Below, piece by piece: positions 15,274-36,913 of a stretch of DNA of 36,913 nucleotides (positions within the stretch are counted from its first letter, which is position 1; every line of letters begins with the position of its first letter). The notes beneath the pieces are model-generated. The model was not told where the DNA came from. It saw only the letters and a program-made list of their open reading frames with translations, and ran no database searches. The DNA is from Cyanobacteriota bacterium (GTDB lineage Bacteria; Cyanobacteriota; Cyanobacteriia; PCC-6307; Cyanobiaceae). The DNA lies in assembly GCA_026389265.1 (NCBI GenBank), contig JAPLIE010000053.1:1-36913 (forward strand), in the 5' to 3' direction. The translations under genes and the position numbers were made by a program.

Positions 15274-15668
15274 CAGGCCTCCAGGGTGAGTTCGTCCACA
15301 TGGGCAAAAGCTTGATCCGCCGTGACCAGGACACAGCCTTCGCTGAGGGCATGGCTAGCGATCAGCAGGTCCAGCGCCGCCAGCGGCTTGCCATGGCGTT
15401 CCAGTTCGGCGCGTAGCCGGCCATAGATCCTGCTGCAGGCTTCGGTCCAGGGCAGGATCTCCAGGGTGTCGAGGGTGGACTCCGCCAGCGCCCGCAACCG
15501 CGTCGCCGTCGGCCGCTTCTCCAGGCCGTAGCGGATCTCGGCCACCACAATCGCCGACAGGCAACAACGTTGCTCACGCACCCAGCCATCCAGGCGTGGC
15601 GAGCGTCGTTGGAGAAAGGCGCTCACGGCGTTGGTGTCCAGCATCAACCTCCTCTTCCCTGCAGCCAT
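15270..15668 (-). CDS. vapC: PIN-domain ribonuclease toxin (VapC-type)
   Basis: 132 residues. LMLDTNAVSAFL gives the first catalytic aspartate, AIVVAEIRYGLEK the glutamate, and LAALDLLIASHALSEGCVLV followed by TADQAF the last acidic residues: the PIN quartet in the right order. VapC toxins cut tRNA or rRNA until bound by VapB. The ATG at 15668 overlaps the antitoxin stop by one base (TGATG), and the stop overlaps the hsdM GTG start by four bases. The toxin therefore sits inside the hsd operon, not just beside it. Confidence 0.88.
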   Translation of the reverse strand: MAAGKRRLMLDTNAVSAFLQRRSPRLDGWVREQRCCLSAIVVAEIRYGLEKRPTATRLRALAESTLDTLEILPWTEACSRIYGRLRAELERHGKPLAALDLLIASHALSEGCVLVTADQAFAHVDELTLEAW

Positions 15669-15928
15669 CAGGGAAAGTCCACCGGTTCTGGAGCACTGGT
15701 GTCATGCAAGCCCTCAAAGAAGGCATCCAGTTCTTCCCGAAATCCAGGCTCCTGCAGCAGCACATCCCTGAGCTCCAGCAACTCCTTCGCCGAAGCCCGC
15801 ACCGGCGTGAGCACCACCGCGCCGCTCTCGGGATCGCGATGCACCTCCACCTCCGTGCCCTCGAAGCGGAATTCGGCCGGCAACCGCACAGCCTGGCTGC
15901 GGCCGTTGCGGAACAGCTTGGCGCGCAT
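15668..15928 (-). CDS. vapB: VapB-type antitoxin (AbrB/SpoVT swapped-hairpin)
   Basis: 86 residues. [20 protein letters not shown] with [20 protein letters not shown] is the AbrB-like DNA-binding fold typical of VapB/MazE antitoxins. The C-terminal half ([20 protein letters not shown]) is the flexible toxin-wrapping part. It is the first gene of the operon vapB-vapC-hsdM-hsdS, and such antitoxins normally repress their own promoter, so it may set the expression of the methylase as well. No clear operator was found in the degraded sequence upstream. Confidence 0.85.
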
Positions 15929-15974
15929 GGGACCCTCTCGCCGTGGTCGATACCGAGACTAGATCAGGTGGCGG

Positions 15975-16151
15975 GTTTGAGCCGAAGGATCGCAGCGGCT
16001 CACTGGCCAAGCTCAACGGCCAAGCTCAACGGCATGCTCGGGCTCTCGGGGTTCACATCCATGCGCTGTCGGCCAGGGCCGACACCTCCAGCGGCGCCAG
16101 ATCGGGCCGGGTGGGGTTACTGAGCGAGAACGTGCCGCGGATCAATCCCAT
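15975..16151 (-). pseudogene. Remnant of a small clan AA aspartic protease-like gene
   Basis: From an ATG at 16151 the minus strand reads MGLIRGTFSLSNPTRPDLAP and LEVSALADSAWM, then a stop. The wording (MGL..GTFSLSNP, then LEV.ALADSG) resembles the N-terminus of small retropepsin-like proteins often found in cyanobacterial toxin-antitoxin islands. The catalytic Asp-Ser/Thr-Gly is damaged to ADSA and the frame breaks. Further down the sequence contains a 13-bp tandem duplication, GGCCAAGCTCAAC at 16005-16017 and 16018-16030, itself frame-shifting. The identification is from memory of the family pattern and is moderate to weak. Confidence 0.4.
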
Positions 16152-16160
16152 GGCGGCAGG

Positions 16161-16826
16161 TTAGCCAGCCCAGATCTCCTCCAGCTCCAGCACCAGCCCC
16201 GGCAACACGTCGCCACCCTCCAGGCGCGTGGCGTTCTCGAGCCGCCGCGGTGCCGTGGGCTCGCCGGCTTTGGGGCGGGCCGGCCAGATCTCCACGGCCC
16301 GCTGCACCGGGAACAACAGCCAGCCCAGCTGGGCGCCATTGGTTTGGTAGAGCGCCATCTTGCGGCGCAGGGCTTCGGCGCCACGGGGGCCTGAATCCGA
16401 AGCACTGGCCAGCTCGATCACCAGATCGGGGCAGAGGGGTGGGAACGTGCGCCGTTGCTCAGGGGTGAGCGCCTGCCAACGATCAAGCTTCACCAGGGCC
16501 AGATCGGGGCTGAGCACCGAACCATCGGCGAGGCGAAAGCTGGTGGAGCTGTCGAACAACTGCACCGGCAACGAGCACTGGCGCGCGGCCAACCCCAGGG
16601 CCAGGCCGAGGTTGTAGTTGCGAGCGCCGGTCTCGCCTCCGGTGGGAGTCATCGTGATCAGCTGGCCATCGGCCGCCAGTTCCAGAACCGCGTCAGGGTT
16701 GGCGTCGCACACCAGGGCGAACTGCTCGGGCGTCAGCCGCAGATCCTGCGGCAGCAGCAACGGCGTCAGCCCGTTGCCAGCCGCTTCGGATGCAGCTGGG
16801 GCAGCAGCAGGTGGAGCGATCGTCAA
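16161..16826 (-). CDS. Uma2-family (DUF820) PD-(D/E)XK-like endonuclease, copy 1
   Basis: 222 residues when started at the TTG at 16826, chosen because it aligns with the ATG start of the paralogue at 24268 (TIAPPAAAPA against PLAPPAATAP). The frame is open to 17030, but that extension runs through the toxin-antitoxin promoter and coding region on the other strand. Family features are LELAADGQLITMTPTGGETG, SVLSPDLALVKLDRW and CPDLVIELASASDSGPRGAE, which carry the acidic residues of the putative nuclease site, plus GWLLFPVQRAVEIW and the end LVLELEEIW. The Uma2 family is very abundant in cyanobacteria and its role is not settled. It is one of two paralogues in this window. Confidence 0.75.
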   Translation of the reverse strand: MTIAPPAAAPAASEAAGNGLTPLLLPQDLRLTPEQFALVCDANPDAVLELAADGQLITMTPTGGETGARNYNLGLALGLAARQCSLPVQLFDSSTSFRLADGSVLSPDLALVKLDRWQALTPEQRRTFPPLCPDLVIELASASDSGPRGAEALRRKMALYQTNGAQLGWLLFPVQRAVEIWPARPKAGEPTAPRRLENATRLEGGDVLPGLVLELEEIWAG

Positions 16827-16905
16827 CTCCCCTGGGTCGTCGATGAACCTGAGTCGCCAATGAATTAAGCCTAAGCGGGTTCGCTGATCCAGCGGACAAG
16901 TTATC

Positions 16906-16924
16906 TGCATGCACAACGCATGCA
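16906..16924. promoter_or_regulatory. Probable operator of the FitAB-type toxin-antitoxin pair
   Basis: TGCATGCACAACGCATGCA is a perfect 7-bp inverted repeat around a 5-bp spacer, 35 bases before the antitoxin ATG at 16959. Toxin-antitoxin operons of this type are normally autoregulated at such repeats. It also lies in the path of the divergent Uma2 gene. Confidence 0.55.
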
Positions 16925-16958
16925 TGAAGCCTACAGTTGATCGGTGCTTGAGGGCCTC

Positions 16959-17204
16959 ATGCCATCCCTGCAGATCCGCGACCTGCCGGAACCGCTTCAC
17001 CGGTTGCTGCAGCACCGCGCCCAGACCCACAAGCGCAGTCTCAGCCAGCAGGCCCTGGCTGATCTGGAGGCCATCGCCGGCGGCGATCCCCGTGAACGCC
17101 GCCGCCAGGTGCTCGATCGCATCTCCCGACGGGGCCCGATCACTCCTGCCCTGAGCGCGGATCCGACCCCGGAGGATCTGATCCGCGCCGACCGCGAGCG
17201 CTGA
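16959..17204 (+). CDS. FitA/VapB-type ribbon-helix-helix antitoxin
   Basis: 81 residues from the ATG at 16959 (MPSLQIRDLPEPLHRLLQHR). The strand SLQIRDLP followed by a helix and AQTHKRSLSQQALADLEAIA is the FitA-like ribbon-helix-helix DNA-binding domain. The C-terminal tail (SADPTPEDLIRADRER) is the unstructured acidic/basic segment that enters the PIN active site. The stop overlaps the toxin start by one base (TGATG). The pair points away from the Uma2 gene and toward hsdR, with which it is convergent. Confidence 0.85.
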   Translation: MPSLQIRDLPEPLHRLLQHRAQTHKRSLSQQALADLEAIAGGDPRERRRQVLDRISRRGPITPALSADPTPEDLIRADRER

Positions 17205-17596
17205 TGGCCCTGGCCTGCGTGCTCGATGCCTCGGCGGCCGTGCGGCTGATCCTGGCTGACCCCGCCGCCGCGGATCTGGCCGAGCGGGTCGGTGGGGCCG
17301 CGCTGGTGCTGGCTCCGGAGCTGATGCTCACCGAGCTGGCCAACACCCTCTGGAAACTCCAGCGGGCAGATCGGCTCAACGATCTCGACCCTCAGGAGCT
17401 GCTGGCCGAGGCCCGCGAGCTGGTGGATCGGCTGGAGCCGGATCGCCACCTGCAGGCCGAGGCCCTGGCGCTCGCCTGCCACCTCAACCATCCGGTCTAC
17501 GACTGTCTCTATCTGGCCCTGGCCCGGCGGGAAGCGGCCAGCCTGATCAGCAGCGATCGGCGCCTGAACGCCCTGGCCCAAAGGGTGTTGCCCTGA
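17204..17596 (+). CDS. PIN-domain toxin (FitB/VapC-type)
   Basis: 130 residues. CVLDASAAVRLILADP supplies the first catalytic Asp, PELMLTELANTLWKL the Glu, NHPVYDCLYLALARREAASL the third acidic residue, and SSDRRLNALAQRVLP the final Asp region. Length and order fit the FitB/VapC PIN family of ribonucleases. It is translationally coupled to the antitoxin before it. It differs clearly from the PIN gene at 15270-15668, so the island carries two independent toxin-antitoxin modules. Confidence 0.87.
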   Translation: MALACVLDASAAVRLILADPAAADLAERVGGAALVLAPELMLTELANTLWKLQRADRLNDLDPQELLAEARELVDRLEPDRHLQAEALALACHLNHPVYDCLYLALARREAASLISSDRRLNALAQRVLP

Positions 17597-17610
17597 GCCC
17601 GGGCGACACC

Positions 17611-19776
17611 TCAGGCCGCCCACACCTCCCGCTGGAACTGCTGCAGCACGCCATCAAGCTCGCCCCCGAACAGCTTGTTCAGGCGCGGCCAGCCGCCGCC
17701 TTCGCGGCGGAACAGCAGGACGTCGTCGTCCAGCGCTTCGCGATCCACGATCGTGATCGCCTTGGTCTGGTTGGCGATGCGTTGCAGCCAGTCGCGCTGC
17801 GGTTTGCTCCAGCTCCTGGAAGCCAGGATCCGCTGCAGCGCCCGCTCCACCCGCTGCTCATACGGCATGAGCGGATCGCCGAGCGCCGCCTGGCGGATCC
17901 AGCCCATGATCGAGGCGACCATCTCCTGGTTGGTGGTGTCCCGCCAGGCCGTGGCCAGGGTGGTTTCGCTGTAGCCCCGCTGATCCAGCGCCAGCTTCAG
18001 CTCGCGCAGATCCTTGCGGGTCAGCTCCCAGGGTTTGGTGAGCACCGTGGTGAGGGCGGGCAGGTCGTTGCCCGGATCACGCACAAAGGCGCTGAAGCCC
18101 TCCAGGTAGTCCTCCGGGCGCTTCGCCTCGCCGTAGCCCCGTTCGATGGCGCGCAGTTCATCGTCGTGTTCGGAGAGGAACTGCGGTTCGGCCCGCACCT
18201 CCCACTGGGCATCGAGCAGCTCGCCCAGCCCCTCGATCCGCCCCAGCCAGCCCCTGGCCTCCGGCTCCGGCAGCAGCTGCAGGCGGCTGATAAAAGCAGC
18301 GGGTTCCTCGCCGCTCAGCAAGCGAAAGCGGGCCTCGGCGTTTTCGCTAAGATGCCGCTGCTTTCGACGCAATTTGGCAATCAGCTGCTCGCGCACCAGC
18401 TGCCAGTCCTCCCCCTCGGTGCTCTGCAGCTCCTCCAGCAGCTGGGAGAAGGGGATCTTGGGGTTCACCACCACCGGCTTCATGTCGGTGAAGGTCTGCA
18501 ATGCGTCATACAGGTCCACCGCATCGAAGATGCGGAAGCTGTCTTTGCCGATTGCTTCGCACAGGCGTGTGGCGCGGCCGATCATCTGGTCGTAGAGGAT
18601 GCGGCTGTTCACGCGGCGCAGAAACACGATATTGCAGATCTCCGGTACATCCACGCCGGTGGTGAGCAGGTCTACGGTGACCGCTACATTGGGAAAGGCC
18701 TCATTCTTGAAGCGCCGGATCAGCTGCGCGGGCTTGTCGCTGCTGCCGGTGATCTTTGCCACCGCTTCATCCGGCACACTGCCATAGCGCTGCGCAAACG
18801 CTTCCTTGAGCAGCAGCACCACCAGATCGGCGTGTTCATTGCTGACACAGAAGATCAGTGTTTTGAAAGGCGAAAACGGATCGAGTTCATCGGCCAGCGC
18901 CTCACACACCACCCTGTTAAATGGTTCGGTGATCACCTCGCGGTTGAAGGCCTCCACATCAAACTTCAGCTCATCCGGGGTGGTGAACAGATCCAGTAGG
19001 CCCGTGCGCGGATCCAGGATCTGCACCTCGTCGCCCGCCTCCCAGCGGATGCCTTCGCTGGAGAGCTTGGTGCTGATCCGAATCGGCGGTTCATGGTCCA
19101 CCAGGTAGCCATCCACCACCGCCTCGCGGTAGCTGTACACAAACACCGGCCGGCCGAAGATCTGCACCGTGTGCAGCGCCGGGGTGGCGGTGAGCGCCAC
19201 CTTCACGGCATCAAACATCTCCAGTACCCGCCGGTACTTCGACACGTAGTCGTTGAAATCGCGGAAGCGCAGCTCGCGATCGCTCAGCTCCCGATCCAGT
19301 AGGTAGCCGCGGTGGCATTCATCCACCACGATCAGGTCGTAGCTGTCCACCGTGGGGCGGCCCTCCTCATCCCCCAGCAACAGCCGCTGCACCATCGCCT
19401 GCACCGTGGCGATGTGCACGCGTGTGTCGCTCTCCACCACCCGTTCGCCCAGCTCCTTGATGCCGTAGATGTCGGCGAAGCTCTGCAGGCTCTCCATCCG
19501 CGTTTCCTTGAAGGCATCGCCGGCCTGGATGCCCAGCTCCTCCCGATCCACCAGGAACAGCACGCGCCGGCGTGCCTCATCGCCCAGATCCGTCTCCAGC
19601 TGCGCCAGCTCTCGCTTCAGCTCGGCAATCACCAGCCCCCGCCGAACGCTTTCAGCCTTCAGGGCACCCCTAGAGCGGTTGGCGGACACGAGCGCCGCAC
19701 CGCATTCCTGATAGGTGCCCTCAAGAGCCTCGGGAGCGGGAGATGGGGGAAAGTCGCTGGCCGAGCGAAGGACCAT
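17611..19776 (-). CDS. hsdR: Type I restriction subunit HsdR, N-terminally truncated
   Basis: 721 residues. From residue 70 on it follows the superfamily 2 helicase/translocase part of HsdR: RRVLFLVDREELGIQAGDAF (motif Ia area), LIVVDECHRGY (DECH box at 152-155), ALTATPALHT (196-199), TVDLLTTGVDVPE and QMIGRATR (motif VI, 397-404), then the C-terminal helical domain that binds the methylase. What should precede residue 70 is missing: the PD-(D/E)XK nuclease domain and the Walker A (GTGKT) loop. The first 69 residues look unrelated to HsdR. The start at 19776 (MVLRSASDFPPSP) has a cognate in the decayed copy at 24581. Without Walker A and nuclease it should neither translocate nor cut. It may be a pseudogene still carrying a long open frame. 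Confidence 0.8.
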   Translation of the reverse strand: MVLRSASDFPPSPAPEALEGTYQECGAALVSANRSRGALKAESVRRGLVIAELKRELAQLETDLGDEARRRVLFLVDREELGIQAGDAFKETRMESLQSFADIYGIKELGERVVESDTRVHIATVQAMVQRLLLGDEEGRPTVDSYDLIVVDECHRGYLLDRELSDRELRFRDFNDYVSKYRRVLEMFDAVKVALTATPALHTVQIFGRPVFVYSYREAVVDGYLVDHEPPIRISTKLSSEGIRWEAGDEVQILDPRTGLLDLFTTPDELKFDVEAFNREVITEPFNRVVCEALADELDPFSPFKTLIFCVSNEHADLVVLLLKEAFAQRYGSVPDEAVAKITGSSDKPAQLIRRFKNEAFPNVAVTVDLLTTGVDVPEICNIVFLRRVNSRILYDQMIGRATRLCEAIGKDSFRIFDAVDLYDALQTFTDMKPVVVNPKIPFSQLLEELQSTEGEDWQLVREQLIAKLRRKQRHLSENAEARFRLLSGEEPAAFISRLQLLPEPEARGWLGRIEGLGELLDAQWEVRAEPQFLSEHDDELRAIERGYGEAKRPEDYLEGFSAFVRDPGNDLPALTTVLTKPWELTRKDLRELKLALDQRGYSETTLATAWRDTTNQEMVASIMGWIRQAALGDPLMPYEQRVERALQRILASRSWSKPQRDWLQRIANQTKAITIVDREALDDDVLLFRREGGGWPRLNKLFGGELDGVLQQFQREVWAA

Positions 19777-26003: not shown

Positions 26004-26951
26004 CTAATCGGTTTCGAAGATGGCCTTCCAGTCCTGCTTCATGTCCACCACGACCCAGCCGCGTGTGGGGGCCTCGCGAAGGGCTGCAACAAGCTTGCCG
26101 GTGCTCTTCGTGTTGGCGTCATAGGCATATTCGCGTTCAGCGTCGGTATGGTGCACAATCAGGCCGAAACTAGGGCGGGGGTTGTTGATCGTGGTGTACT
26201 GCAACATGGCGTGGTCGCCATCACTGTTCCCACAACAGATGACCGGTCGCCGGCCGATGAACTGATGAATCCCCACTGGCTTGCCTGCATTGTCATTCAC
26301 GAACAAATAGTCGAGGGTTTTCGTGAGCACCGGGCCGCTGTCGCGTAGCTCGTATGTCGTCCGGGCCGTGGAGCCCACAACCTGCTCCGGAGGGATGCCG
26401 TACACACGTTCCACCCAGACGCGTATGAAGTCGACGCCACCACCGGAAACGATGAAGTTCTTGAAGTCATGGGCCCGCAGATAGCTCAGCAGTTCCTGCA
26501 TCGGCAGGTAGGTGAGTTCGTCATAGGGCCTGCCGTAGCGCGGATGTCTGGCCGAGGCGAGCCAGGCCTCCACGGCGACACGAAACTCGTCGGTCGTCAT
26601 CCCGGTGTGGGTGAGCGCCAGGATCTGCATCAGGCCATCGAAGTGGTCGCCTTCCAGTAGTTTGCCAAGATCGCCGGCCAGGGCGGCCTGCACCATGGGA
26701 ACGGCAGCAAGCGCGGGCTCAACAAGGATGCGGCGCTTCAGTTCGTCGATGGCAAAGGCTGCCTGAAACGGCATCGGATTCTCCGGCCAAAGACAGCCGT
26801 CGTTATCAAACACGGCGATGCGTTCTGCCCATGGCAGGAAGTCGGGGGATCCAGCCGTTGTCACCCTGGCGATGAAGGCGAGGATCGCCTGTTTACCGGC
26901 GCCATCGTTCCAGGAGGGGAGGGGATCGGCAGCGGTGGTAGCTATAGCCAT
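26004..26951 (-). CDS. HAD-superfamily hydrolase, phosphoserine phosphatase-like
   Basis: 315 residues. Motif I is IAVFDNDGCLWPEN (nucleophile Asp49, acid/base Asp51); most relatives have FDNDGTLW, so a Cys stands where Thr is usual. FKNFIVSGGGVDFIRVW is motif II (Ser), KTLDYLFVNDNAGKP supplies the lysine region, and VICCGNSDGDHAMLQY motif III/IV (GNSDGD). The helical cap lies between residues 60 and 150. Proteins of this subgroup are often found beside arylsulfatases; here the sulfatase is 2.4 kb away with other genes between. No signal peptide. Substrate unknown. Confidence 0.82.
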   Translation of the reverse strand: MAIATTAADPLPSWNDGAGKQAILAFIARVTTAGSPDFLPWAERIAVFDNDGCLWPENPMPFQAAFAIDELKRRILVEPALAAVPMVQAALAGDLGKLLEGDHFDGLMQILALTHTGMTTDEFRVAVEAWLASARHPRYGRPYDELTYLPMQELLSYLRAHDFKNFIVSGGGVDFIRVWVERVYGIPPEQVVGSTARTTYELRDSGPVLTKTLDYLFVNDNAGKPVGIHQFIGRRPVICCGNSDGDHAMLQYTTINNPRPSFGLIVHHTDAEREYAYDANTKSTGKLVAALREAPTRGWVVVDMKQDWKAIFETD

Positions 26952-27009
26952 GCTTAGATGAGGTAGTCGTTCGGGCCGGTGCGGGGACCGACAAAGCTGT
27001 GCGTATAGT

Positions 27010-28308
27010 TTACTGCCGGTTGGCTGATCGCCTCGTCATGGGTTGTCGTGTTTGAGCAGCTTTTTCGAAGATATCGGCAACCTGGCCGACCCCACCTGAT
27101 TCTTGAATGATTTTTTGCATTCGCTGAGCATGATTACGGTAGCTTGATTCTGAAAGAACCTCCGAAATCGCTGTGCGAAGTGAAATTTCGCTAAGCTCAC
27201 TAAGTTTCAACATTTTCCCGGCTTTTGTTCGTGCCAGCCTTGAGGCAATCCCGGGTTGTTCATTGGTGATCGGAATCGCTACAAGCGGAACGCCACAACC
27301 GAGGGCGGTCAGCACGGTGTTCATCCCTGCATGGGTAACAACAACTTGTGAACGCTCAATTAGTTTTTGATGGGGCGCAAATGGCACAATGATGGGATTG
27401 CCAGGAAGCTCAATTAATGGCGCCTTCGGATTTCCTAGCGAGATAACAAGCTGAACATCCAATGACAAACAGGATTTGGCAATACATTCAAAAATTTCAG
27501 GGCGCTGGTTTTGTAGTGTTCCCAATGAAGCATAGATCAGGGGTTTGCCATTCAGTCGCTCAAAAGGAAAGTCGGTATTATCGAAACTAATGGGTTCTGT
27601 TCCCGCTGGATCCTGAAAGCGCCCAATATAATGAAAATGATCTGGCAGGTGTTCACGAGGAAAGTCAAAAGCCTCTGGAAGTTGACACACCTGGGCCAAA
27701 GGTGAAAAGGCATCCTTACGCTTTTGGTATGGAGGCAAGTTCCATTCGCGGCGCTGCTCAACAATCACTTGCCATAAATCGCGGGCGAGGAAATCGACCA
27801 GTGCGTTCCCACATCGATTACGCACGCGAGCCCAAGGTGTTGTTGAGTAAGCCCAGTGAGTTGAGTAGGGAGGCACGCCTGGCTCACGGTTGATCAGCAT
27901 TGCATTGCACACCGTGATGAAAGGCAAGCCAAGGTAGTCGGCAACGCTTGCCATTGATGAGGATATTTGATCGATGATGAGTACATCAATCTTTGCTTTT
28001 CGGATTGCTTGTGGTGCCTCGCGAAAAAACATTTGTGTTTCCCGCTTGAAAAAATCAATAGAGAATTTAAGCCCTGCCTTCCCTGTTAGCTTTCCTAGAG
28101 TTCTGTAAGCAGAGTCGATGCTTCCCATGGGATAATCAGATGTACCAATTTCCTGGGTTGTGAGGTTAAGATTCGATACTTTTGCTAAAGCATCAGGAAC
28201 CCCAAACAGGATAACGATGTGACCACGCCGCTGAAGTTCAAGGGCGATAGCGCACATCGGGTTCAAGTGTCCGATAGCGGGTGGACAGAAAAGGCCAAAT
28301 CGTGTCAT
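27010..28308 (-). CDS. GT1-type glycosyltransferase, zeaxanthin glucosyltransferase-like
   Basis: 432 residues with the two Rossmann lobes of the GT-B UGT/MGT family. N-lobe: MTRFGLFCPPAIGHLNPMCA with IALELQRRGHIVILFGVPD, the usual acceptor-site His in GHLNP. C-lobe: GKPLIYASLGTLQNQRPEIF and the sugar-nucleotide signature VVTHAGMNTVLTALGCGVPL followed by VAIPITNEQPGIASRLA. The wording is closest to CrtX/zeaxanthin glucosyltransferase-like proteins, suggesting a lipid or carotenoid acceptor, but this is inference. Base composition is lower in GC than in the first 26 kb, so the gene may have been acquired. The last 15 residues are a basic tail. Confidence 0.82.
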   Translation of the reverse strand: MTRFGLFCPPAIGHLNPMCAIALELQRRGHIVILFGVPDALAKVSNLNLTTQEIGTSDYPMGSIDSAYRTLGKLTGKAGLKFSIDFFKRETQMFFREAPQAIRKAKIDVLIIDQISSSMASVADYLGLPFITVCNAMLINREPGVPPYSTHWAYSTTPWARVRNRCGNALVDFLARDLWQVIVEQRREWNLPPYQKRKDAFSPLAQVCQLPEAFDFPREHLPDHFHYIGRFQDPAGTEPISFDNTDFPFERLNGKPLIYASLGTLQNQRPEIFECIAKSCLSLDVQLVISLGNPKAPLIELPGNPIIVPFAPHQKLIERSQVVVTHAGMNTVLTALGCGVPLVAIPITNEQPGIASRLARTKAGKMLKLSELSEISLRTAISEVLSESSYRNHAQRMQKIIQESGGVGQVADIFEKAAQTRQPMTRRSANRQ

Positions 28309-28537
28309 TGAGAGTGCTTGTGATGGTTTGATCTAAAGGTAAACTAGGTGTGTAACTACTGGTGAATCGACCTGAATACCTTGCCGCCTGGACTTTAGCT
28401 TCGAAACCTAGATGCCAAGCCATAACAAAGCGTCAATTCATCAATTGAACGACTCACATGGTCTAACGTAGAGGTAAATGCTGCGCGGAGCCAAGGACCC
28501 TTGGCTGTAGTGCGCCCGGTTGACCCTAGGCTAGGTC

Positions 28538-29116
28538 TCAGGTTGTAAGTGAACTCCGCAAAAGGTAGTCCCAAACTTGCTTCACTACAAGCGGCCCAGA
28601 GTGAAGTTTGATGAGATCGTCTCCGATGTCGTCTCCAATACCTGCCTGAACTTCAAAGAGCTGGTCCCGCGCCTGTGGTTCGGTGACGAGTACCTCACGA
28701 TTCTGAAGCAGCGTTGATTTGGCTTCGTCCTCAATAACCTGCTTCATCTGAGGGTACTCGTACTTCGGCGCCTTTGATCCAAAGTTATAGTTAGCGTATT
28801 CGCGGAGATCCTGGAGTTGCTCGTACAGATCCAAGAAACCGCGTTCTAGTTTCCGTGTTTTACAGAGATGGGTTTCGACAAATGATCGAAGCTGGCTGTG
28901 CCTCAGTCGAGTCATCTTTTCTTCGGGCAACGATTCGCATAGCCAAAGCATTGAAACCGCAGAGTGAAAGCAGACGTAATAGAAGCCCATGCAAGGCAGG
29001 AGAGTTCCCTGTGTCTCTTGCAATGTTGCTTTGCTGCTTTCATTAAATACGACTGCGGCAAGAATGTGCTTTGCTGACCTGGTAACTCGCTTGTGCGGCA
29101 GCATGGTAGACATCAT
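28538..29116 (-). CDS. HEPN-like protein of unknown function (192 aa)
   Basis: All-alpha by eye. SAKHILAAVVFNESSKATLQ, GFYYVCFHSAVSMLWLCESL, then HSQLRSFVETHLCKTRKLER and DLYEQLQDLREYANYNFG. The FYY.CFHSA helix followed by a later LREYANY helix resembles the HEPN/UPF0332 pattern (AYYA.FHAA ... R..ADY), found in ribonuclease toxins, RNA-processing factors and defence proteins. I do not see a strict R-X4-6-H motif, so catalysis is uncertain. The start at 29116 (MMSTMLPHKRV) is an ATG, with two more Met choices within five codons. GC content is low, as in its neighbours. Confidence 0.5.
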   Translation of the reverse strand: MMSTMLPHKRVTRSAKHILAAVVFNESSKATLQETQGTLLPCMGFYYVCFHSAVSMLWLCESLPEEKMTRLRHSQLRSFVETHLCKTRKLERGFLDLYEQLQDLREYANYNFGSKAPKYEYPQMKQVIEDEAKSTLLQNREVLVTEPQARDQLFEVQAGIGDDIGDDLIKLHSGPLVVKQVWDYLLRSSLTT

Positions 29117-29214
29117 GACAGATGAAGTCTAACGTTCAAGCTAAGCTGGAGCCAAAAATATGGCGCGTTGGTGCTCAGATAGAGCGAAGAGCTAGGGCTT
29201 GGTGAGAGACTGCT

Positions 29215-29712
29215 CTAAGTATTTCTGCAGAGAATCCTCAAGCGTCTGGAAGAGTCGCGTTCATTTAAGTGGCCACGAACCTCGGCAGGGCTATCCCACC
29301 AGAGAATTTTTCCGCCGGCTCCAGTGCCAGCCAAAGCACCTCGCACCTCATTGTTGACGCAAGACAACCTAAGCGGCACCGTTATGGTGTTAGTGTTGGC
29401 AGGTATATTGACCTCAATGCGAGCTATTTGCGTATTTCCAGACATAATAGAAGGACGGATTCGAGGAGGTGGTGGTCCTTGCGTGCCACGGATCACAGCG
29501 TTCTGGGCAATGCCATCTCGAACAATTCCTGCAGAAAGCGTGTAAATTGCGGACCCACCATTCCGAATGGTTTCTGGACCGTCAAGCGTTACTGATGAGA
29601 CAGAGAATCGAATGTCACGCAATGGTGGCGTGCCCCCCATTCCCATCAAAACAGGAACAGTGGCTAGTGCAAGGACAGCGAATAGAAGTCGAGTTCTCAA
29701 TTGAGTCTCCAT
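29215..29712 (-). CDS. Secreted protein of unknown function
   Basis: 165 residues starting METQLRTRLLFAVLALATVP, a basic N-region and hydrophobic core with likely cleavage near VLMGMGG. The mature part is beta-rich (IRFSVSSVTLDGPETIRNGG, IEVNIPANTNTITVPLRLS) with two well-spaced cysteines, one near 138 (LSCVNN) and one at the end (LRILCRNT), perhaps forming a disulfide. It reads like an Ig-like or beta-sandwich secreted domain. No family recognised. Lower GC than the chromosome around it. Confidence 0.6.
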   Translation of the reverse strand: METQLRTRLLFAVLALATVPVLMGMGGTPPLRDIRFSVSSVTLDGPETIRNGGSAIYTLSAGIVRDGIAQNAVIRGTQGPPPPRIRPSIMSGNTQIARIEVNIPANTNTITVPLRLSCVNNEVRGALAGTGAGGKILWWDSPAEVRGHLNERDSSRRLRILCRNT

Positions 29713-30210
29713 TTAATAAGTTGCCACTTGTATGTAAACATGACAAGTAGATCAAAGGACTACCCGTTGCTTTGGCGGCACAACAAACATGTGCGTTGTA
29801 CCGTGCGGGCCACCAAGGAAGTGTGTGATGTTATCGAAACAGTCCTAAGCTCCTCCTAATTGTAGCCGGATCCGTATAAGCTGTCAACACTGCCTTCTTA
29901 TTCCGTGTTAGACACGAAATCTCTGGCTTGCTGTCTCCAGTGCCCATTGCGCTGCAGGGGCTTTGCTAGGCGTGTGTCAGTTGGTGGACGGTTTAGATGG
30001 TCTGTCGAAAGCACCTTGCGCAGGCACGAGACCAAATACTTGCCATCCGCAGAGAAGCGTCATGTATTCCTCCAGGCTTTGAGTCCACCCAACGCTGCCC
30101 ATAGTGGCAGGCAGGGAGCCTGAGGTGGTGTAGCAGATGGTTGGTAGAGGCCTGTTCATACGAGGGGCTTGTTCGTAGGACCTTAGGTGTAGCAGCAAAC
30201 GCATCGTATT
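29713..30210. other. AT-richer intergenic stretch between the secreted-protein gene and the TIR-TPR gene
   Basis: No gene supported. A 75-codon minus-strand frame (30204-29977) and a 72-codon plus-strand frame (29905-30123) overlap each other, and neither has a recognisable motif or composition. The stretch holds the upstream region of the secreted-protein gene and the 3' end of the TIR-TPR transcript. I saw no T-run hairpin. Confidence 0.4.
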
Positions 30211-33066
30211 TTAGTTTAGTGAACGCAGCGCATTATCAAACCAACCCAACCAATCCTGATTTGCGTGCAACTTTCCTGCCTGCTTGAGTGCTGAAAGCAG
30301 CTTTAGGCCTCGGGAAAGATACTCCTTCCGTTGCTGCACTGTCACAAGTGATTCAAGGCTACCGAGCTTGGCGCAGGATACGGCTACATCCACTTGCCAC
30401 CCCGTGTTCGCCGGATCGCGCTTCGCAAGGCCTTCGGCGATCGCCAGCCTCGCCTTGTAGGCCGCCAGCGCCCCTGGCCCATCCCCCTGCGCCACCAGCA
30501 CATCACCAATCTTGATATTGCTCACCGAGAGATCGCGCTGCCACTCCGTGTCGCCCGGATCGCGCTTCGCAAGGCCTTCTGCGATCGCCAGACCCGCCTG
30601 GTAGGCCGCTAGGGCCCCTGGCCCATCACCCTGCGCCACCAGTACATTGCCAATCTTGGTATTTGCAACAAAAAGATCGCGATGCAACTGCATGTTCGCC
30701 GGATCGCGCTCTGCCATTTTTTTTATGGTTACCAGTATAGCCTTATAGGCGTTAAGTGCTGCAGAGCCATCACCCTGTGCCATCAGGACATCAGCTACCT
30801 TGCAATGGCTGATGAGGAGATCGCGCTGCCACAGCGTGTTCGCCAGATCGCGCTTCGCCAGGCCCTCTCTAATCGTCAGCCCCGCCTGGTAGGCCGCTAG
30901 TGCACCTGGAGCATCACCCTGCGCCAGCAGCACATCGCCAATGCGGTCATGACTCACCGAGAGTTCGCGCTGCCACAGCGTGTTCGCAGGATCGCGCTTC
31001 GCCAGGCCTTCGTGTGTTGTCAGCACTGCCTGCACAGTTTGATAGGCTTTCTGCGCTGCAACGTCATCACCCTGTGCCATCAGAACATCAGCTAACTTGC
31101 TTTGTCTGATGGGGAGATCTCGCTGCCACTCTATGTTCGCCGGATCGCGTTTCGCCAGGCCTTCGGCGATCGTCAGCCCCGCCTGGTAGGCCGCTAGTGC
31201 ACCTGGAGCATCACCCTGCGACAGCAGCACATCGCCAATGCGGTCATGGCTCACCGAGAGATCGCGCTGCCATTCAGTGTTCGCGATATCGAGCTTCGCC
31301 AAGCCTTCGGCGATCGCTAGACCTTCCTTAAAGGCTACCAGTGCGCCTGATCTATCACCCTGCGCCACCAGCACATCACCAATCTTGGTTTTGCTCACAA
31401 AAAGATCGCGCTGCCACCCCGTGTTCGCCGCATCGCGCTTTGCAAGGCCTTCGGCAATCGTCAGCCCCGCCTGGTATGCCGCCAGTGCCTCAGGACTATC
31501 CCCCCGGGCCACCAGCAGATCACCAATCTTGTTGTTGCTCACATAAAGATCACGCTGCCACTGCGTGTTCGCCGGATCGCGCTTCACCAATCTTTCTCTG
31601 ATCGTCAACCCCGCCTTGACGCTTGCCAGTGCCCGTGAACCATCACCCTGCTGCAGCAGCATATCGACAATGCGGCCACTGCTCACCGAGAGATCGCTCT
31701 GCCACTGCGTGTTCGCCGGATCGCGCTGCGCCAGGTCTTCAGCGATCGCCAGCCCCGCCTGGTAGGCCGCCAGCGCCCCTGGCCCATCACCCTGCACCAC
31801 CAGCACATCACCAATCTTGTTGTTGCTCACCGAGAGATCGCGTTGCCACTCCGTGTTCGCCGGATCGCTCTTCGCCAGGTCTTCGGCGATCGCCAGCCCC
31901 GCCTTGTAGGCCGCCAGTGCGCCTGACCCATCACCTCGCACCACAAGCACATCACCAATCTTGGCTTTGCTCACAAAAAGATCGCGCTGCCACCCCGTGT
32001 TCGCCGCATCGCGCTTCGCAAGGCCTTCGGCGATCGCCAGCCCCGCCTGGTAGGCCGCCAGCGCCCCTGGGCCATCCCCCTGCGCCACCAGCACATCACC
32101 CCGGCCATTGAGCCCCCAGCCTTCCAGGCGTGGATTTTGGGCAGCCTTGGCCTGCAGGATCAGCGCAGTGAACACAGTGCCTGCTTGATCCAGTTCTCCA
32201 GCGCTGATCCAGGCATAGCCCAGTTGCATCGCGGCAACCAGATCTTCGGGATTGGCCTCCAGTGCTATCTGGAAGTAACGCACATCCTTGCAGAGATCAC
32301 CCCGCACCACCGCCAGGCTGGCCACATTGCGGGCGGCATCCGCTTCCCGGCGGCCCTCGCTGGCCGCTAACCGCTCTGCCGCCAGCCTGAGCCGCCGGCT
32401 GGCTTCCACCTCCTGCTCAAACGAGGCTTCTGCAAGCAGCGTGTCGCCGTTGGCCAGTGCCGCCAGCGCTGCCTTCAAGGCTGGCCGTTCCTCTGGATCG
32501 GCACCGGCGGCACGGTGCAACAGGCTCTCCAGCGCTTGTTCTTCACCCTGCCGGCCCACGGCACCAGATGCTTCTGTGGCTCGCGCCATTGAGAGGCCTT
32601 GCTGAGCACCACTCATCAGCGCCATCCATTCCTCCAACTCCGGATGCACTGGCAGCCCAGTTGCGGCAGCGATGGCTTCGATCAAGCGGCGCGTGTCGTC
32701 ATCCCAGCCGCTCTCGCTGAGGGCCAACACATTCCAATCACCCAGCAGGGGCCGCAGGCTCTCCGGTAGCTGATTAACGGGGATCTGAGCCAGCTGGACG
32801 TCCTCCACAAGCAGGGGGATCACCGTGAGAAGCTCCTGATCGCCGCTGGCCAGGGCTGTCTCCAGCTCGTGGCGCACCATGTCGTTGGGATCCTGCAGGC
32901 GTGGCAGGTTGGTGGCGTCGGCCCAGCGGCGGCCGATGACGGCCACACAGGCCTTACTGGTGGCCAGAGCCTCCTCTATCTTGTGGCGCCATTTGCCCGC
33001 GCCAATACTCGCCACATCACGAAACACCTGCTCTCGGCCAAAACCGATTCGCAGCCAGTCCCACAC
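30211..33066 (-). CDS. TIR-domain protein with twelve TPR-like repeats
   Basis: 951 residues from a GTG at 33066. The frame is open upstream to a TAG at 33151-33153 and there encodes SCIFISYRRDDARGASGR, the first strand of a TIR domain, so the real protein probably starts earlier, perhaps at the ATT at 33147. The TIR domain continues with WDWLRIGFGREQVFRDVASI, ALATSKACVAVIGRRW and NDMVRHELETALA, whose Glu is a candidate NADase residue. A helical linker (140-320) leads to twelve repeats (323-901), 48 residues each except one of 51, with the pattern GDVLVAQGDGPGALAAYQAG then LAIAEGLAKRDPANT-WQRDLSVS, then a 50-residue cap. TIR proteins with a repeat sensor are a common layout in bacterial defence and signalling; ligand and role here are unknown. 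Confidence 0.8.
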   Translation of the reverse strand: MWDWLRIGFGREQVFRDVASIGAGKWRHKIEEALATSKACVAVIGRRWADATNLPRLQDPNDMVRHELETALASGDQELLTVIPLLVEDVQLAQIPVNQLPESLRPLLGDWNVLALSESGWDDDTRRLIEAIAAATGLPVHPELEEWMALMSGAQQGLSMARATEASGAVGRQGEEQALESLLHRAAGADPEERPALKAALAALANGDTLLAEASFEQEVEASRRLRLAAERLAASEGRREADAARNVASLAVVRGDLCKDVRYFQIALEANPEDLVAAMQLGYAWISAGELDQAGTVFTALILQAKAAQNPRLEGWGLNGRGDVLVAQGDGPGALAAYQAGLAIAEGLAKRDAANTGWQRDLFVSKAKIGDVLVVRGDGSGALAAYKAGLAIAEDLAKSDPANTEWQRDLSVSNNKIGDVLVVQGDGPGALAAYQAGLAIAEDLAQRDPANTQWQSDLSVSSGRIVDMLLQQGDGSRALASVKAGLTIRERLVKRDPANTQWQRDLYVSNNKIGDLLVARGDSPEALAAYQAGLTIAEGLAKRDAANTGWQRDLFVSKTKIGDVLVAQGDRSGALVAFKEGLAIAEGLAKLDIANTEWQRDLSVSHDRIGDVLLSQGDAPGALAAYQAGLTIAEGLAKRDPANIEWQRDLPIRQSKLADVLMAQGDDVAAQKAYQTVQAVLTTHEGLAKRDPANTLWQRELSVSHDRIGDVLLAQGDAPGALAAYQAGLTIREGLAKRDLANTLWQRDLLISHCKVADVLMAQGDGSAALNAYKAILVTIKKMAERDPANMQLHRDLFVANTKIGNVLVAQGDGPGALAAYQAGLAIAEGLAKRDPGDTEWQRDLSVSNIKIGDVLVAQGDGPGALAAYKARLAIAEGLAKRDPANTGWQVDVAVSCAKLGSLESLVTVQQRKEYLSRGLKLLSALKQAGKLHANQDWLGWFDNALRSLN
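30364..32100 (-). repeat. Array of twelve 144-bp coding repeats
   Basis: The TPR-like part of the TIR gene is a tandem array: eleven units of 144 bp and one of 153 bp (the eighth, with three extra residues). Units 1, 2, 3, 11 and 12 are nearly the same; units 4, 8 and 10 are the most diverged. GGCGATCGCC (HIP1-containing) recurs at the same place in several units. The similarity suggests recent unit duplication or gene conversion. Confidence 0.85.
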
Positions 33067-33353
33067 ACGTCCGCTGGCTCCGCGGGCATCATCGCGGCGG
33101 TAGCTGATGAAAATGCAGCTGCGATCAGCAGTATGATCGGTATCAATGACCTACGGCAGCTAGTGAATTCATCGTAGCCGTAGAGTAATATGTACAAAGG
33201 GATGGGCGGGATCTCAATCCTCCCAACGTTATAAGGATGCTATCCATAAACCACGGCGGTGCTCCTGCAGCTTTCCGAGAATCACTCCCATGCCGTTGAC
33301 CCAGCCCCTCCGCAGGGCGGACTCGCTGCCTTCAAGGCAGGACGGCCCCCCAC

Positions 33354-33797
33354 TCAAGGATTCTTCGGCACCAGGGCCACAGGGATGACCACCCCTTGCC
33401 GGTTCTTCGCGGCCGATTCTGTGAGCCACTGGGCCACCACGGGGGTGGAGAGCATGCGGGTGAGCAGGCGGCACTCCAGCTCTCGGTTGGTATCGTCCCC
33501 GCTGGCGATCACCACCATCACTTCACCGGAGGGGATGGTTTCCCGAGCCAGGATCGAGAACAGGGGCTCGGGCAATAGGGCGCCCTGGTGCAGATCCTGG
33601 ATCACGTGAATCAGCTCATGCCGGAGGATCTCTTCCTGATCCATTCCCTGGGCCTGGATGCTGGCGGCGCAGAGAAAGACGACGGCCTGTTCGCGGTTCC
33701 ATCCACCCATCAGCATGGGTTTTTGGGCACATCGGGGATCCGAGTGGGTCACGGTGAGGCCGGCAGCAGCTGCAGCTGCGATCAGGAGCTGGATCAA
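33354..33797 (-). CDS. Small secreted protein with an HExxH zinc-protease-like motif
   Basis: 147 residues. MIQLLIAAAAAAGLTVTHSD looks like a short signal peptide. The central helix EEILRHELIHVIQDLHQGAL contains HELIH, the HExxH zinc-binding motif of zincin peptidases, followed by a region that could give a third ligand (Glu in ECRLLTRML, about 55 residues on). PRCAQKPMLMGGWNREQAVV and VVFLCAASIQAQ carry two cysteines. Similar short 'DUF'-type proteins occur in picocyanobacteria; activity is not shown. Its start is 16 bases from a Pho-box-like element, which suggests phosphate control. Confidence 0.65.
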   Translation of the reverse strand: MIQLLIAAAAAAGLTVTHSDPRCAQKPMLMGGWNREQAVVFLCAASIQAQGMDQEEILRHELIHVIQDLHQGALLPEPLFSILARETIPSGEVMVVIASGDDTNRELECRLLTRMLSTPVVAQWLTESAAKNRQGVVIPVALVPKNP

Positions 33798-33812
33798 TAG
33801 AGGGGTGCGGGT

Positions 33813-33876
33813 GGTTAACGACAGGTTAAGGCGGGGAACCCGCTGTGGGGCGAGCTGTCTTAACGTCTTGTTAACC
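33813..33876. promoter_or_regulatory. Pair of inverted Pho-box-like elements
   Basis: On the minus strand 33830-33813 reads CTTAACCT-GTC-GTTAACC, and on the plus strand 33859-33876 reads CTTAACGT-CTT-GTTAACC. Each is two 8-bp TTAA-centred repeats separated by 3 bp, the arrangement of cyanobacterial Pho boxes (PyTTAAPyPy(T/A) repeats bound by SphR/PhoB). The two face outward, one toward the HExxH gene and the other toward the plus-strand methyltransferase gene. Confidence 0.5.
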
Positions 33877-34171
33877 GCTCAGTCCGCAGCGCTCATCGCC
33901 GGTGGGAAGAGCTTTCGGCTCGGGCGCTTCAGTCCCGATCCAGCTGCTTGCAGCTTTCGAGCAGCCGGTGCTGCCGCCGACAACCTGGTTCCTGGTCTGC
34001 GAGCCGATCGGCCAGCCCAAAGCCGGGTTCGCTGTGTAGGAGCTGAGCTGGCTGAATGGATCGCCAAGGCTCTCCGCTGCTGCATAGCCGCCGCTCAGAG
34101 GCAGGCGCCCGCCTCCGAAGGAGCCCCGGGAGCTGGGGGGTCAGGATGGCGCAGCTGTCCTGCCGCTGCCC
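33877..34171. other. Gap upstream of the DUF938 methyltransferase gene
   Basis: No gene supported. A plus-strand stretch reading FEQPVLPPTTWFLVCEPIGQ, then PKAGFAV and a stop (ending near 34040), looks protein-like, but the frame has no good start and is too short to call. Otherwise the gap is GC-rich and featureless. Confidence 0.35.
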
Positions 34172-34795
34172 GTGCGTTTCTCCGAGGCTTGCGAACGCAA
34201 CAAGGAGCCGATCCTGCATGTCTTGCGCCAGTGGCTGCCGCCGCAGGCGCGGGTGCTGGAGGTGGGCTCCGGCAGCGGCCAACACGCCGTGCATGTCGTC
34301 CGGCAGCTGGCCGGCGTGCAGTGGCAGCCCAGCGACCGGGCCGAGTACCTGGCTGATCTCAGGGAGCGGATCGCCCTGGAGGGCCGCGAGGGCCTGGCCC
34401 CCGGTGCCCAGCTGGCGGATCCGCAGGAGCTGGATGTGGACCGAGCCGAGCAGTGGCCGCGGGGTCCCTACGAGGCGGTGTTCAGCGCCAACACCACCCA
34501 CATCATGGAGGCGGCCTCGGTGCCCTGCCTGCTGGCTGGCGCGGCGCGGGTGCTGGCGCCCGGCGGCCTGCTGCTGCTCTACGGCCCCTTTCTTGGCGGT
34601 GGAGTGCCCACGGCGCCCAGCAATGCTGCCTTCGATGCCCACCTGCGCAGTCTCGATCCGGCCATGGGGCTGCGCGATGCCCAGGCGGTGAACGAGCAGG
34701 CGCTCAGCCTTGGCCTTGAGGCGTTGGCGGATGAGGCGATGCCGGCCAATAACCGCACCTTGGTCTTTCGGAAGCGGGGGGCGGCGGTGGGCTGA
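34172..34795 (+). CDS. DUF938-family SAM-dependent methyltransferase
   Basis: 207 residues from a GTG at 34172 (MRFSEACERNKEPILHVLRQ). FSEACERNKEPIL is the hallmark N-terminus of DUF938 proteins; ARVLEVGSGSGQHAVHVVRQ is the SAM-binding motif I, and VFSANTTHIMEAASVPCLLA with LAPGGLLLLYGPFLGGGVPT are motifs post-II to III. The substrate of the family is not known to me. The gene follows the plus-facing Pho-box-like element by about 300 bases, but whether that element is its promoter is unclear. Confidence 0.85.
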   Translation: MRFSEACERNKEPILHVLRQWLPPQARVLEVGSGSGQHAVHVVRQLAGVQWQPSDRAEYLADLRERIALEGREGLAPGAQLADPQELDVDRAEQWPRGPYEAVFSANTTHIMEAASVPCLLAGAARVLAPGGLLLLYGPFLGGGVPTAPSNAAFDAHLRSLDPAMGLRDAQAVNEQALSLGLEALADEAMPANNRTLVFRKRGAAVG

Positions 34796-34947
34796 GGCAT
34801 GGGGCCGTGATGTGGGCACAGCCATGGGGCTGAGGCGCTGGGCTGCTGCTCGGCTTGCCAGTGTGGGCGCGGCTGGGAATGATGGATCCAGGGCCCTGCC
34901 GACTGGAGGGGACTCCATCCGCCATCCCATTACCCCGCTGATTGCCC

Positions 34948-35358
34948 GTGGCCTTCGTCAACGAAGTCGTTTCCGACGCCGACATCGACGCCTATGGCCT
35001 CCCCTTTGAGAAGGGCAAGGGCCATTGGTGGACCCGCGACAAGGAGCGGGATCTTTATTTGTGGGGTGGGGAATATGGAAATCCAGCCTGGGGAGATGAA
35101 GTGGAAGGACGCTTTAGTCTGTTTATTGATGGCAAAACGCTTCGACTTGCACTTACATTTGGTGTTTGGTCAAAAAACTGGCATGTGAGGCCATTTATTG
35201 TCACTTGGGATCAACTGCTATGGATTGATCCTCCAGATTGCTGTGGCATTGATCGATCAAGGGTGATTGATTTGCTTCAAGAGGCGCTAGTTGCTTATGG
35301 CCGGGATGGCAGAGAAAATCGAAACACGCCAGAGAGGATTGTACGTTTCGGTTTCTAA
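34948..35358 (+). CDS. Hypothetical protein with GC-mosaic sequence (136-138 aa)
   Basis: Starts at the GTG at 34948 or the TTG at 34942: VAFVNEVVSDADIDAYGLPF, then EKGKGHWWTRDKERDLYLWG, GRFSLFIDGKTLRLALTFGV and a helical end, VIDLLQEALVAYGRDG. About the first 35 codons are GC-rich like the host; from about 35050 the third positions become AT-rich. No family recognised. The small size, the aromatic-rich body and the place just upstream of a large glycine-zipper protein would suit an immunity-type protein, but that is only context. It ends at 35358 with TAA. Confidence 0.5.
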   Translation: MAFVNEVVSDADIDAYGLPFEKGKGHWWTRDKERDLYLWGGEYGNPAWGDEVEGRFSLFIDGKTLRLALTFGVWSKNWHVRPFIVTWDQLLWIDPPDCCGIDRSRVIDLLQEALVAYGRDGRENRNTPERIVRFGF

Positions 35359-35669
35359 GCTATTTCGGATTCGTTTCTCGATCGAACTTCCGCCTTGGCA
35401 TGGAATCAGCTGGTTGGCGTCGGTCGATTTCGATTCGGTTCGTGACATCCATTTATTCTGCAGCGCCAGGAGTTGATGGATTTGCTTCCATTAACGCCCT
35501 GGTGTCGGTGGATCCATCCATCCGCACCCTGGTGCATCAGGTATCCCTTGCTTTCCGAGGTTCCACGATCGTCCACCGAGCCGAGTCTGTCCGCCCCAGG
35601 GAATGATCGCTGCATGGCCGTTGCTCGTGGGGCAGCGGGCTGAACTCTTTCCTTTCCCTTTCCTCTGCC
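35359..35669. other. Gap before the large partial gene
   Basis: No gene supported. A 68-codon plus frame (35400-35606) has no motif, and 35640-35668 is a pyrimidine-rich tract (CTCTTTCCTTTCCCTTTCC) just before the ATG at 35670, so no Shine-Dalgarno sequence is present for that gene. Confidence 0.4.
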
Positions 35670-36913
35670 ATGGCCATCACAGCCGAGGCGGCCATGGCTC
35701 GCCTGGCCGACGTGCACACGATTGACCAGCTCACTGCCCTGATCGATTTGATCGATGTGGAGGTGTCGGGTGGACGAACCATGTTGTTCAGTGGTCAGCT
35801 CACCCTGAATGACGGGCCAGGGAAATACGCAATCAGATCGTTTGATGTGGCGGCCTCACTGGCTGCTGATCACTCCGAGCTTTTGTTTATTAATAATTTT
35901 CCGATTGGTAAGTTTTTAGATGTTCAGCGAGGTAGTAGCACGGCCAATGAATTGCTAATTGCGAAGCTAGACCAATTGTTCTCTGGAGATCGTGAAAAAA
36001 TTCTCGCCTACTTCTACGGCTCCCGCGATGCCAACGGCAATCGGATCCCCAATGGCATCTGGGACCGGGTATCGGCCCGCTTCGCCGCCGCCGCCAGCGG
36101 CGAAGTGCTCACCCTCGCTGCCGGCGCCCGGCTCGATGGCGTGTTCGCCCAGAGCGAACTGGCGGTGCTGCTGGCCAATCCCCGCGTCACGCGGATCGAT
36201 GGGGTTCCGATCAGTGTGCTGCGTGGGCTCAACCTGCAGCAGGCCTTCGAGCTGATCACCGCCAACTCCGAAATCGAGTTGGCTCATCTCCGCGTGGCCG
36301 TGGATGCCTCCGGCAATCCGATCCTGCGCCAAGGGCTTCTCCAGATCGATAGCCGCCCCTTCCTCGCGGATCTGCCCCCCGTGGCTCCGCTCCCCCTGCC
36401 GGAGGGGGCCACCTACCGCCCCCTCGGCACCTTCCTGCCCCCCGACCGCTTCCGCAACCACCAGCAGGTGCTGCAGAGCTACCGCCCGCTGCTGGTAGCG
36501 GAGCAGCAGGCCCTCAACCGCCCCGATCAGATCCTGGAGCGGGTAGCGACCACCAAGCTGCTCAGCCGCCTGGATGAGGGCTTGCTGGTGCTGGGTCTGG
36601 CCATCGCCGCGAACGATGCCCACGCCGCCCTGCAACGCGGCGACCAAGACGGTGCCCAGGCCATCCTCAGCCGCTGGGCCCGGGAGACGGCCGGTGGCCT
36701 AGCGGGGGCGCGGCTCGCCGCGCACCTGGCCACCCCCCTGCTCGCCGCCGGGCCGATCGGGGCCCTGGCGGCCGCCGGCGTGGTGGCTGCCGGTGGCTTC
36801 GCTGGTGCCCAGCTCGCCGGCGGACCCGCCGGTGAGGCGCTCCAAGCCGCCTTCAGCCGTGCCCTGGCCGACTGGGCTGAGGCCGCCATCGCCACGCTTC
36901 AGAGCCTCTTCGG
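35670..36913 (+). CDS. N-terminal part of a large protein with a glycine-zipper segment (partial)
   Basis: Open from the ATG at 35670 (MAITAEAAMARLADVHTIDQ) to the window end: 414 codons, no stop. Residues 1-110 (LSGQLTLN-type beta strands, LLFINNFPIGKFLDVQRGSS) are encoded by AT-rich codons between 35830 and 35990. Residues 110-250 (FYGSRDANGNRIPNGIWDRV, LLANPRVTRIDGVPISVLRG, LQQAFELITANSEIELAHLR) and the rest are GC-rich. A proline-rich linker (LPPVAPLPLPEGATYRPLGT) leads to helices and then a Gly/Ala-rich hydrophobic zipper (ETAGGLAGARLAAHLATPLL, AGPIGALAAAGVVAAGGFAG), as in secreted repeat or polymorphic-toxin-like proteins. No signal peptide. Identity unknown; the C-terminus lies outside. 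Confidence 0.7.
   Translation, partial: MAITAEAAMARLADVHTIDQLTALIDLIDVEVSGGRTMLFSGQLTLNDGPGKYAIRSFDVAASLAADHSELLFINNFPIGKFLDVQRGSSTANELLIAKLDQLFSGDREKILAYFYGSRDANGNRIPNGIWDRVSARFAAAASGEVLTLAAGARLDGVFAQSELAVLLANPRVTRIDGVPISVLRGLNLQQAFELITANSEIELAHLRVAVDASGNPILRQGLLQIDSRPFLADLPPVAPLPLPEGATYRPLGTFLPPDRFRNHQQVLQSYRPLLVAEQQALNRPDQILERVATTKLLSRLDEGLLVLGLAIAANDAHAALQRGDQDGAQAILSRWARETAGGLAGARLAAHLATPLLAAGPIGALAAAGVVAAGGFAGAQLAGGPAGEALQAAFSRALADWAEAAIATLQSLF

Follow-up and report, generated by a model that had tools for sequence, protein, structure and literature searches.

An ATT codon at the inherited start position of a cyanobacterial TIR-TPR gene

The stretch of DNA analysed here, referred to as the window, spans 36,913 nucleotides of contig JAPLIE010000053.1 from a member of the Cyanobiaceae. 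Its minus strand carries a long open frame for a TIR domain followed by tetratricopeptide repeats (TPRs), and this frame raises a simple question: where does translation of the complete protein begin? Judged from the reading frame itself, no standard in-frame codon (ATG, GTG or TTG) can start a complete TIR domain. We consider it likely that the original start of the gene, at 33147, changed from a standard codon to ATT, and that the full-length protein is now made as a trickle or not at all.

Layout of the frame and the protein it encodes

Read on the minus strand from the upstream stop, the codons run TAG (33153–33151) GTC ATT GAT ACC GAT CAT ACT GCT GAT CGC AGC TGC ATT TTC ATC AGC TAC ... 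CGT GTG (33066). This listing confirms the claim of an earlier note on this DNA that no ATG, GTG or TTG occurs from the TAG at 33151–33153 to the GTG at 33066. The same note had placed FISYRRDDARGASGR at 33067–33111, and the frame does encode it there. The protein belongs to the Pfam profile TIR_2 (PF13676) with a score of 34.4 bits against a cut-off of 28 (E = 3.5e-8), and position 1 of the profile falls on residue 12 of the ATT-started protein. Initiation at the GTG at 33066, which is residue 28, would therefore leave out the first TIR strand. Across the TIR family, this strand counts as essential to the fold. Structure prediction of the TIR domain from a three-row alignment gave a mean pLDDT of 46.4 and was too poor to use. 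In the C-terminal part several TPR models scored above their Pfam cut-offs, identifying the product as a TIR-TPR protein.

Table 1. Features of the TIR-TPR locus, in positions of the window.
Feature	Position	Strand	Remark
TIR-TPR open frame	30211–33147	minus	978 codons from ATT (30214–33147) plus stop 30211–30213
In-frame upstream stop, TAG	33151–33153	minus	
ATT at the inherited start position	33145–33147	minus	aligned with orthologue GTG; 11 codons before first TIR strand, as in relatives
First standard start codon of the frame, GTG	33064–33066	minus	inside TIR domain, past first strand
TIR domain	32785–33114	minus	Pfam TIR_2, residues 12–121 counted from ATT
Glu94 codon	32866–32868	minus	aligned with Glu of DWVHKEIVTAL in SARM1
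TPR-coding tandem array	30395–32100	minus	144-bp units, 11.8 copies
9-codon reading frame, ATG 33172	33143–33172	minus	its TGA overlaps ATT by one base (ATTGA)
Gap-free block with orthologue	33049–33228	minus	180 bp, 87.2 percent

Among solved structures, six sequence matches were obtained at E ≤ 0.01, all of them SARM1 TIR domains, with a best E of 0.0016. Glu94 of the window protein aligns with the glutamate in DWVHKEIVTAL of SARM1, which we take to be the catalytic residue, and is present in all five alignment rows (the window and four relatives). The likeness to the SARM1 TIR domain, an NAD hydrolase, consists of this sequence match and the aligned Glu94; the similarity is weak and, unlike SARM1, the window protein is bacterial and joins its TIR domain to TPRs. 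Going by the alignment, it may be a TIR-TPR protein of the kind suspected of NAD cleavage.

In architecture the protein can be likened to the group 6 TIR proteins, which the available text of PMC7075850 describes as having an N-terminal TIR domain, many C-terminal tetratricopeptide repeats and more than 700 residues. All of these traits are shared with the window protein, whereas group 6 is described there as mainly actinobacterial with its own box motifs and the window protein is cyanobacterial. Additionally, the SAVED_TIR model of PADLOC matched over 73 residues at the start of the TIR domain (E = 3.3e-4), but there is no SAVED domain among the Pfam matches of the protein. The sole NCBIfam match, to the RbcX model, scored 21.7 bits against a cut-off of 150 and was taken as chance.

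Elsewhere in the window, positions 12233–19776 carry type I restriction-modification genes (specificity, methylase and restriction subunits) together with a Uma2-family gene and a PIN-domain gene. The restriction-modification genes lie about 10–18 kb from the TIR-TPR gene, a neighbourhood that fits a defence role for it but is no proof of one.

Start codons in the orthologue and other relatives

The nearest orthologue lies in a Cyanobium genome at the same chromosomal place as the window gene (loci L009 and L049 are the same place). The shared surroundings match at 84.5 percent over window positions 33965–36913, at 91.3 percent over 33301–33894 and, on the other side of the gene, at 92.5 percent over 26410–28347. 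In an ungapped 180-bp alignment, a GTG of the orthologue stands exactly opposite the ATT at 33145–33147. The earlier note had seen in this ATT a natural start position and had suggested that orthologues be checked for an ATG lost at 33147. The first idea held, and the check was positive for a standard codon: the syntenic orthologue starts with a GTG that aligns gap-free with the ATT.

The distance to the TIR domain points the same way. In three of the five close relatives (L048, ATG; L049, GTG; L052, GTG), the sole standard start before the first TIR strand lies 11 codons upstream of it, and the window ATT is likewise 11 codons before this strand. L051 has an ATG at 12 and a TTG at 11 codons, while L050 starts earlier, with an ATG at 21 and a TTG at 18 codons plus another TTG far upstream. 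The orthologue GTG opposite the ATT and the shared start distance indicate a codon change on an old start and no lost 5′ piece. As aligned, the ATT occupies the inherited start and it is the codon itself that has changed. The earlier suggestion of a broken 5′ end thus survives as a change of codon and fails as a loss of extra 5′ coding sequence, none of which was lost. A frameshift or nonsense mutation severing an upstream start was also rejected, since the orthologue aligns gap-free through the start and has no longer N-terminus.

Among homologous loci, all 33 that could be assessed have a standard start after the upstream stop and before the first TIR strand, which makes the window gene unusual among its relatives. 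The survey was given 42 loci, from which repeats of the same places had been excluded beforehand; 9 of the 42 either yielded no match or were not covered at the N-terminus. The start position is conserved in the orthologues, none of the five close relatives keeps the non-canonical codon, and ATT was found at this start in one genome only. Close relatives are present in three named records, of which two are Cyanobium (BJHE01000066.1 and sp. Morenito 9A2) and the third is an uncultured cyanobacterium MAG. The gene is rare: counting the window's own genome, matches occur in 4 of 42 genomes of the genus, in 15 of 400 of the family (several of them weak) and in 45 of 388 of the class, where all but the own and one other (G422) are only 30–45 percent identical. 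The locus shows cleanly how a start codon can change while its position stays, and a gene caller restricted to ATG, GTG and TTG would start the gene inside its first domain.

An assembly error or minority variant, with a standard codon in the true genome, would also account for a single odd start. The assembly comprises 3.49 Mb in 214 contigs, one of which is the window in full, and has an estimated contamination of 3.02 percent; one or two differing bases would be enough. However, the codon lies well within its contig, and the ATT is no isolated odd base, since codons next to it differ from the orthologue as well; we consider this source of the ATT very unlikely.

Alternatively, ribosomes might enter from the short upstream frame that begins with the ATG at 33172, either by a +1 frameshift before its TGA or by stopping and restarting at ATTGA. 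The ATG at 33172 is also present in the orthologue, and in the window the stop of the short frame falls on the ATT. The orthologue, however, has its GTG and needs no such route, its short frame continues beyond the GTG, and the four remaining close relatives have start codons that lie directly in the TIR frame. In addition, no Shine-Dalgarno pairing was found, and slippery features were judged by eye. Entry from the short frame seems extremely improbable to us. Given the starts of the relatives, a frameshift is not needed; the +1 shift from the ATG at 33172 was rejected as unnecessary, and the frameshift entry listed in the earlier note loses its footing because the relatives' own start codons are already in that frame.

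The two chromosomal places differ in length on both sides of the gene. In L049 the flanking matches abut, and about 1.8 kb of the window (28347–30146) has no counterpart there; the two small frames within it, 28538–29116 and 29215–29712, matched nothing in Pfam, PADLOC or NCBIfam. On the upstream side of the TIR gene, opposite window positions 33228–33301, L049 has about 2 kb more, partly unread, where the window has about 72 bp. By eye, this extra DNA holds a frame resembling a GMC-type oxidoreductase.

The ATT as a start codon

The anti-Shine-Dalgarno duplex energy at the window leader is +0.5 kcal/mol, which means no pairing. The four relatives tested gave −2.5, +1.4, +0.1 and +0.7 kcal/mol, and because most of them also lack pairing its absence here is weak evidence. 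Strong Shine-Dalgarno support, which is seen in Staphylococcus cases and may be unneeded in cyanobacteria, was not found at the ATT. A scan of 33100–33420 for promoters and terminators found none. Just past the ATT, at 33122–33139, we observed by eye a perfect 6-bp inverted repeat (CGATCA, a 6-base loop, TGATCG). The repeat is imperfect in the orthologue, and several bases near the start differ together.

Non-standard starts are known from other bacteria. The available text of PMC5472188 describes E. coli infC, with ATT (AUU), and Streptomyces sigR, with GTC, as translated under IF3 control, and documents non-canonical starts that are repressed by IF3. In the cyanobacterium Nostoc 7120, proteogenomics assigned ATT and ATA starts to some genes, according to the accessible part of PMC8557916. 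The window gene resembles infC and sigR in having a non-standard codon at the start position. In contrast to those codons, which the text of PMC5472188 presents as regulatory via IF3, the window ATT occurs in one genome and no supporting leader feature was seen. Similarly, the AUU start of Staphylococcus cvfC1 is conserved and comes with an extended Shine-Dalgarno site, as described in the portion of PMC13009471 at hand, whereas the window ATT has neither. The infC gene of the window's own genome has an ATG just before its apparent conserved N-terminus (judged by eye), so the classical ATT feedback lacks a local precedent. That infC had been considered as a precedent for an ATT start and was dropped, as an ATG is available there. 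In the literature searched, no work joining a TIR domain with a noncanonical start codon was found.

These comparisons bear on a further possibility, namely that the ATT works as a weak start favoured by selection, one that would hold a potentially self-toxic TIR protein low, by analogy with the infC ATT or the sigR GTC. The ATT sits exactly on the start position and the long frame is open; additionally, both the cyanobacterial ATA and ATT starts (reported in PMC8557916, as far as its text was available) and the IF3-repressed starts (likewise for PMC5472188) speak for it. Against it, all five close relatives have a standard codon and no Shine-Dalgarno site is found here, unlike the conserved AUU and the extended site described for cvfC1 in the available text of PMC13009471; moreover, this genome's infC has its ATG, and neutral evolution on the window branch is not rejected (see below). 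A selected weak start therefore appears doubtful. The infC-type throttle put forward in the earlier note does not fare better, given the standard starts of all five close relatives, the unpaired leader and the ATG of infC. An evolved ATT throttle is conceivable, but it finds no support here.

We instead favor a mutation of the start codon at 33147 from a standard codon to ATT, with the position retained. Ribosomes would then start at the ATT rarely or not at all, the full-length protein would drop to a trickle or nothing, and any full-length product would begin at the ATT. The allele would be attenuated or on its way to becoming a pseudogene. The ATT probably silences or strongly lowers the protein, and the change is probably recent because 978 codons are still open. 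All this has the look of a minor mutation of an ordinary sort: the gene is of a known kind with its start codon changed, and a new mode of control is unsupported.

The sister copy and selection on the gene

The orthologue, hereafter the sister copy (L049), carries a 91-bp deletion within the TIR domain that shifts its frame; window positions 33049 and 32958 both map to L049 12555. From stop to stop, the frame with the GTG at its start is 46 codons long (L049 12457–12576), and behind the deletion lies an open frame of 485 codons from its own GTG (L049 12540–13997). The four other close relatives are open over 774, 747, 834 and 755 codons stop to stop. The deletion in the sister copy indicates that an intact TIR domain is being lost in this pair of species.

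A codon branch model was fitted to 325 columns, 293 of them with the sister copy. The model gave omega values of 0.07 for the background, 0.89 for the window and 0.09 for the sister branch (lnL −4706.77), where the background value is lowered by deep branches that are long and probably saturated. Fixing the window omega at 1 had no cost (lnL −4706.77 in both cases), and thus neutral evolution is not rejected, while fixing it at the background value was rejected at a cost of 9.5 lnL units (2ΔlnL 19.1). The fit is nearly as good with a single omega of 0.37 shared by the two sister branches (cost 0.5; 2ΔlnL 0.94), and neutrality on both of them was rejected (cost 5.8; 2ΔlnL 11.7). With the window at background, the sister omega hit the upper bound (20), indicating that these two branches, both short, are difficult to tell apart.

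In pairwise comparisons, the neighbouring UDPGT-like gene had an omega of 0.28 and the rest of the TIR region one of 0.43. Given the value of the neighbour, the relaxation is modest and cannot be assigned to the window alone. For the first 32 codons including the start, the pairwise omega was 1.78, based on about 10 changes, a number too small to weigh. By parsimony over the first 330 codons from the TIR strand, amino-acid-changing and silent changes numbered 15 and 6 on the window branch, 4 and 9 on the sister branch and 6 and 9 unassigned, small numbers that serve as a pointer only.

We also estimated the chance that 978 codons stay free of stops under free drift. At 0.10 substitutions per codon, corresponding to the whole window branch, this chance is 0.02–0.04 with indels uncounted, and at 0.05 substitutions per codon it is 0.14–0.21. 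Because stop-free drift over the whole branch is improbable, constraint probably acted on the frame during some of that period.

Taken with the deletion in the sister copy, a recent start-codon mutation in a gene that the species pair is losing or taming is the most economical reading. A more elaborate version, in which a defence-type TIR NADase had its start recently converted to ATT as a selected damper with an IF3-controlled trickle and the sister lineage tamed the gene by the TIR deletion, strikes us as unlikely. If the ATT is really used, the sister alleles (ATT start and TIR deletion) would be a natural pair for studying whether costly TIR effectors are tamed by bacteria at translation initiation.

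Compared with the sister copy, the window has the longer array of 144-bp TPR units: its frame counts 978 codons from the ATT, that of the sister copy 485. This difference in array length suggests gain or loss of repeats.
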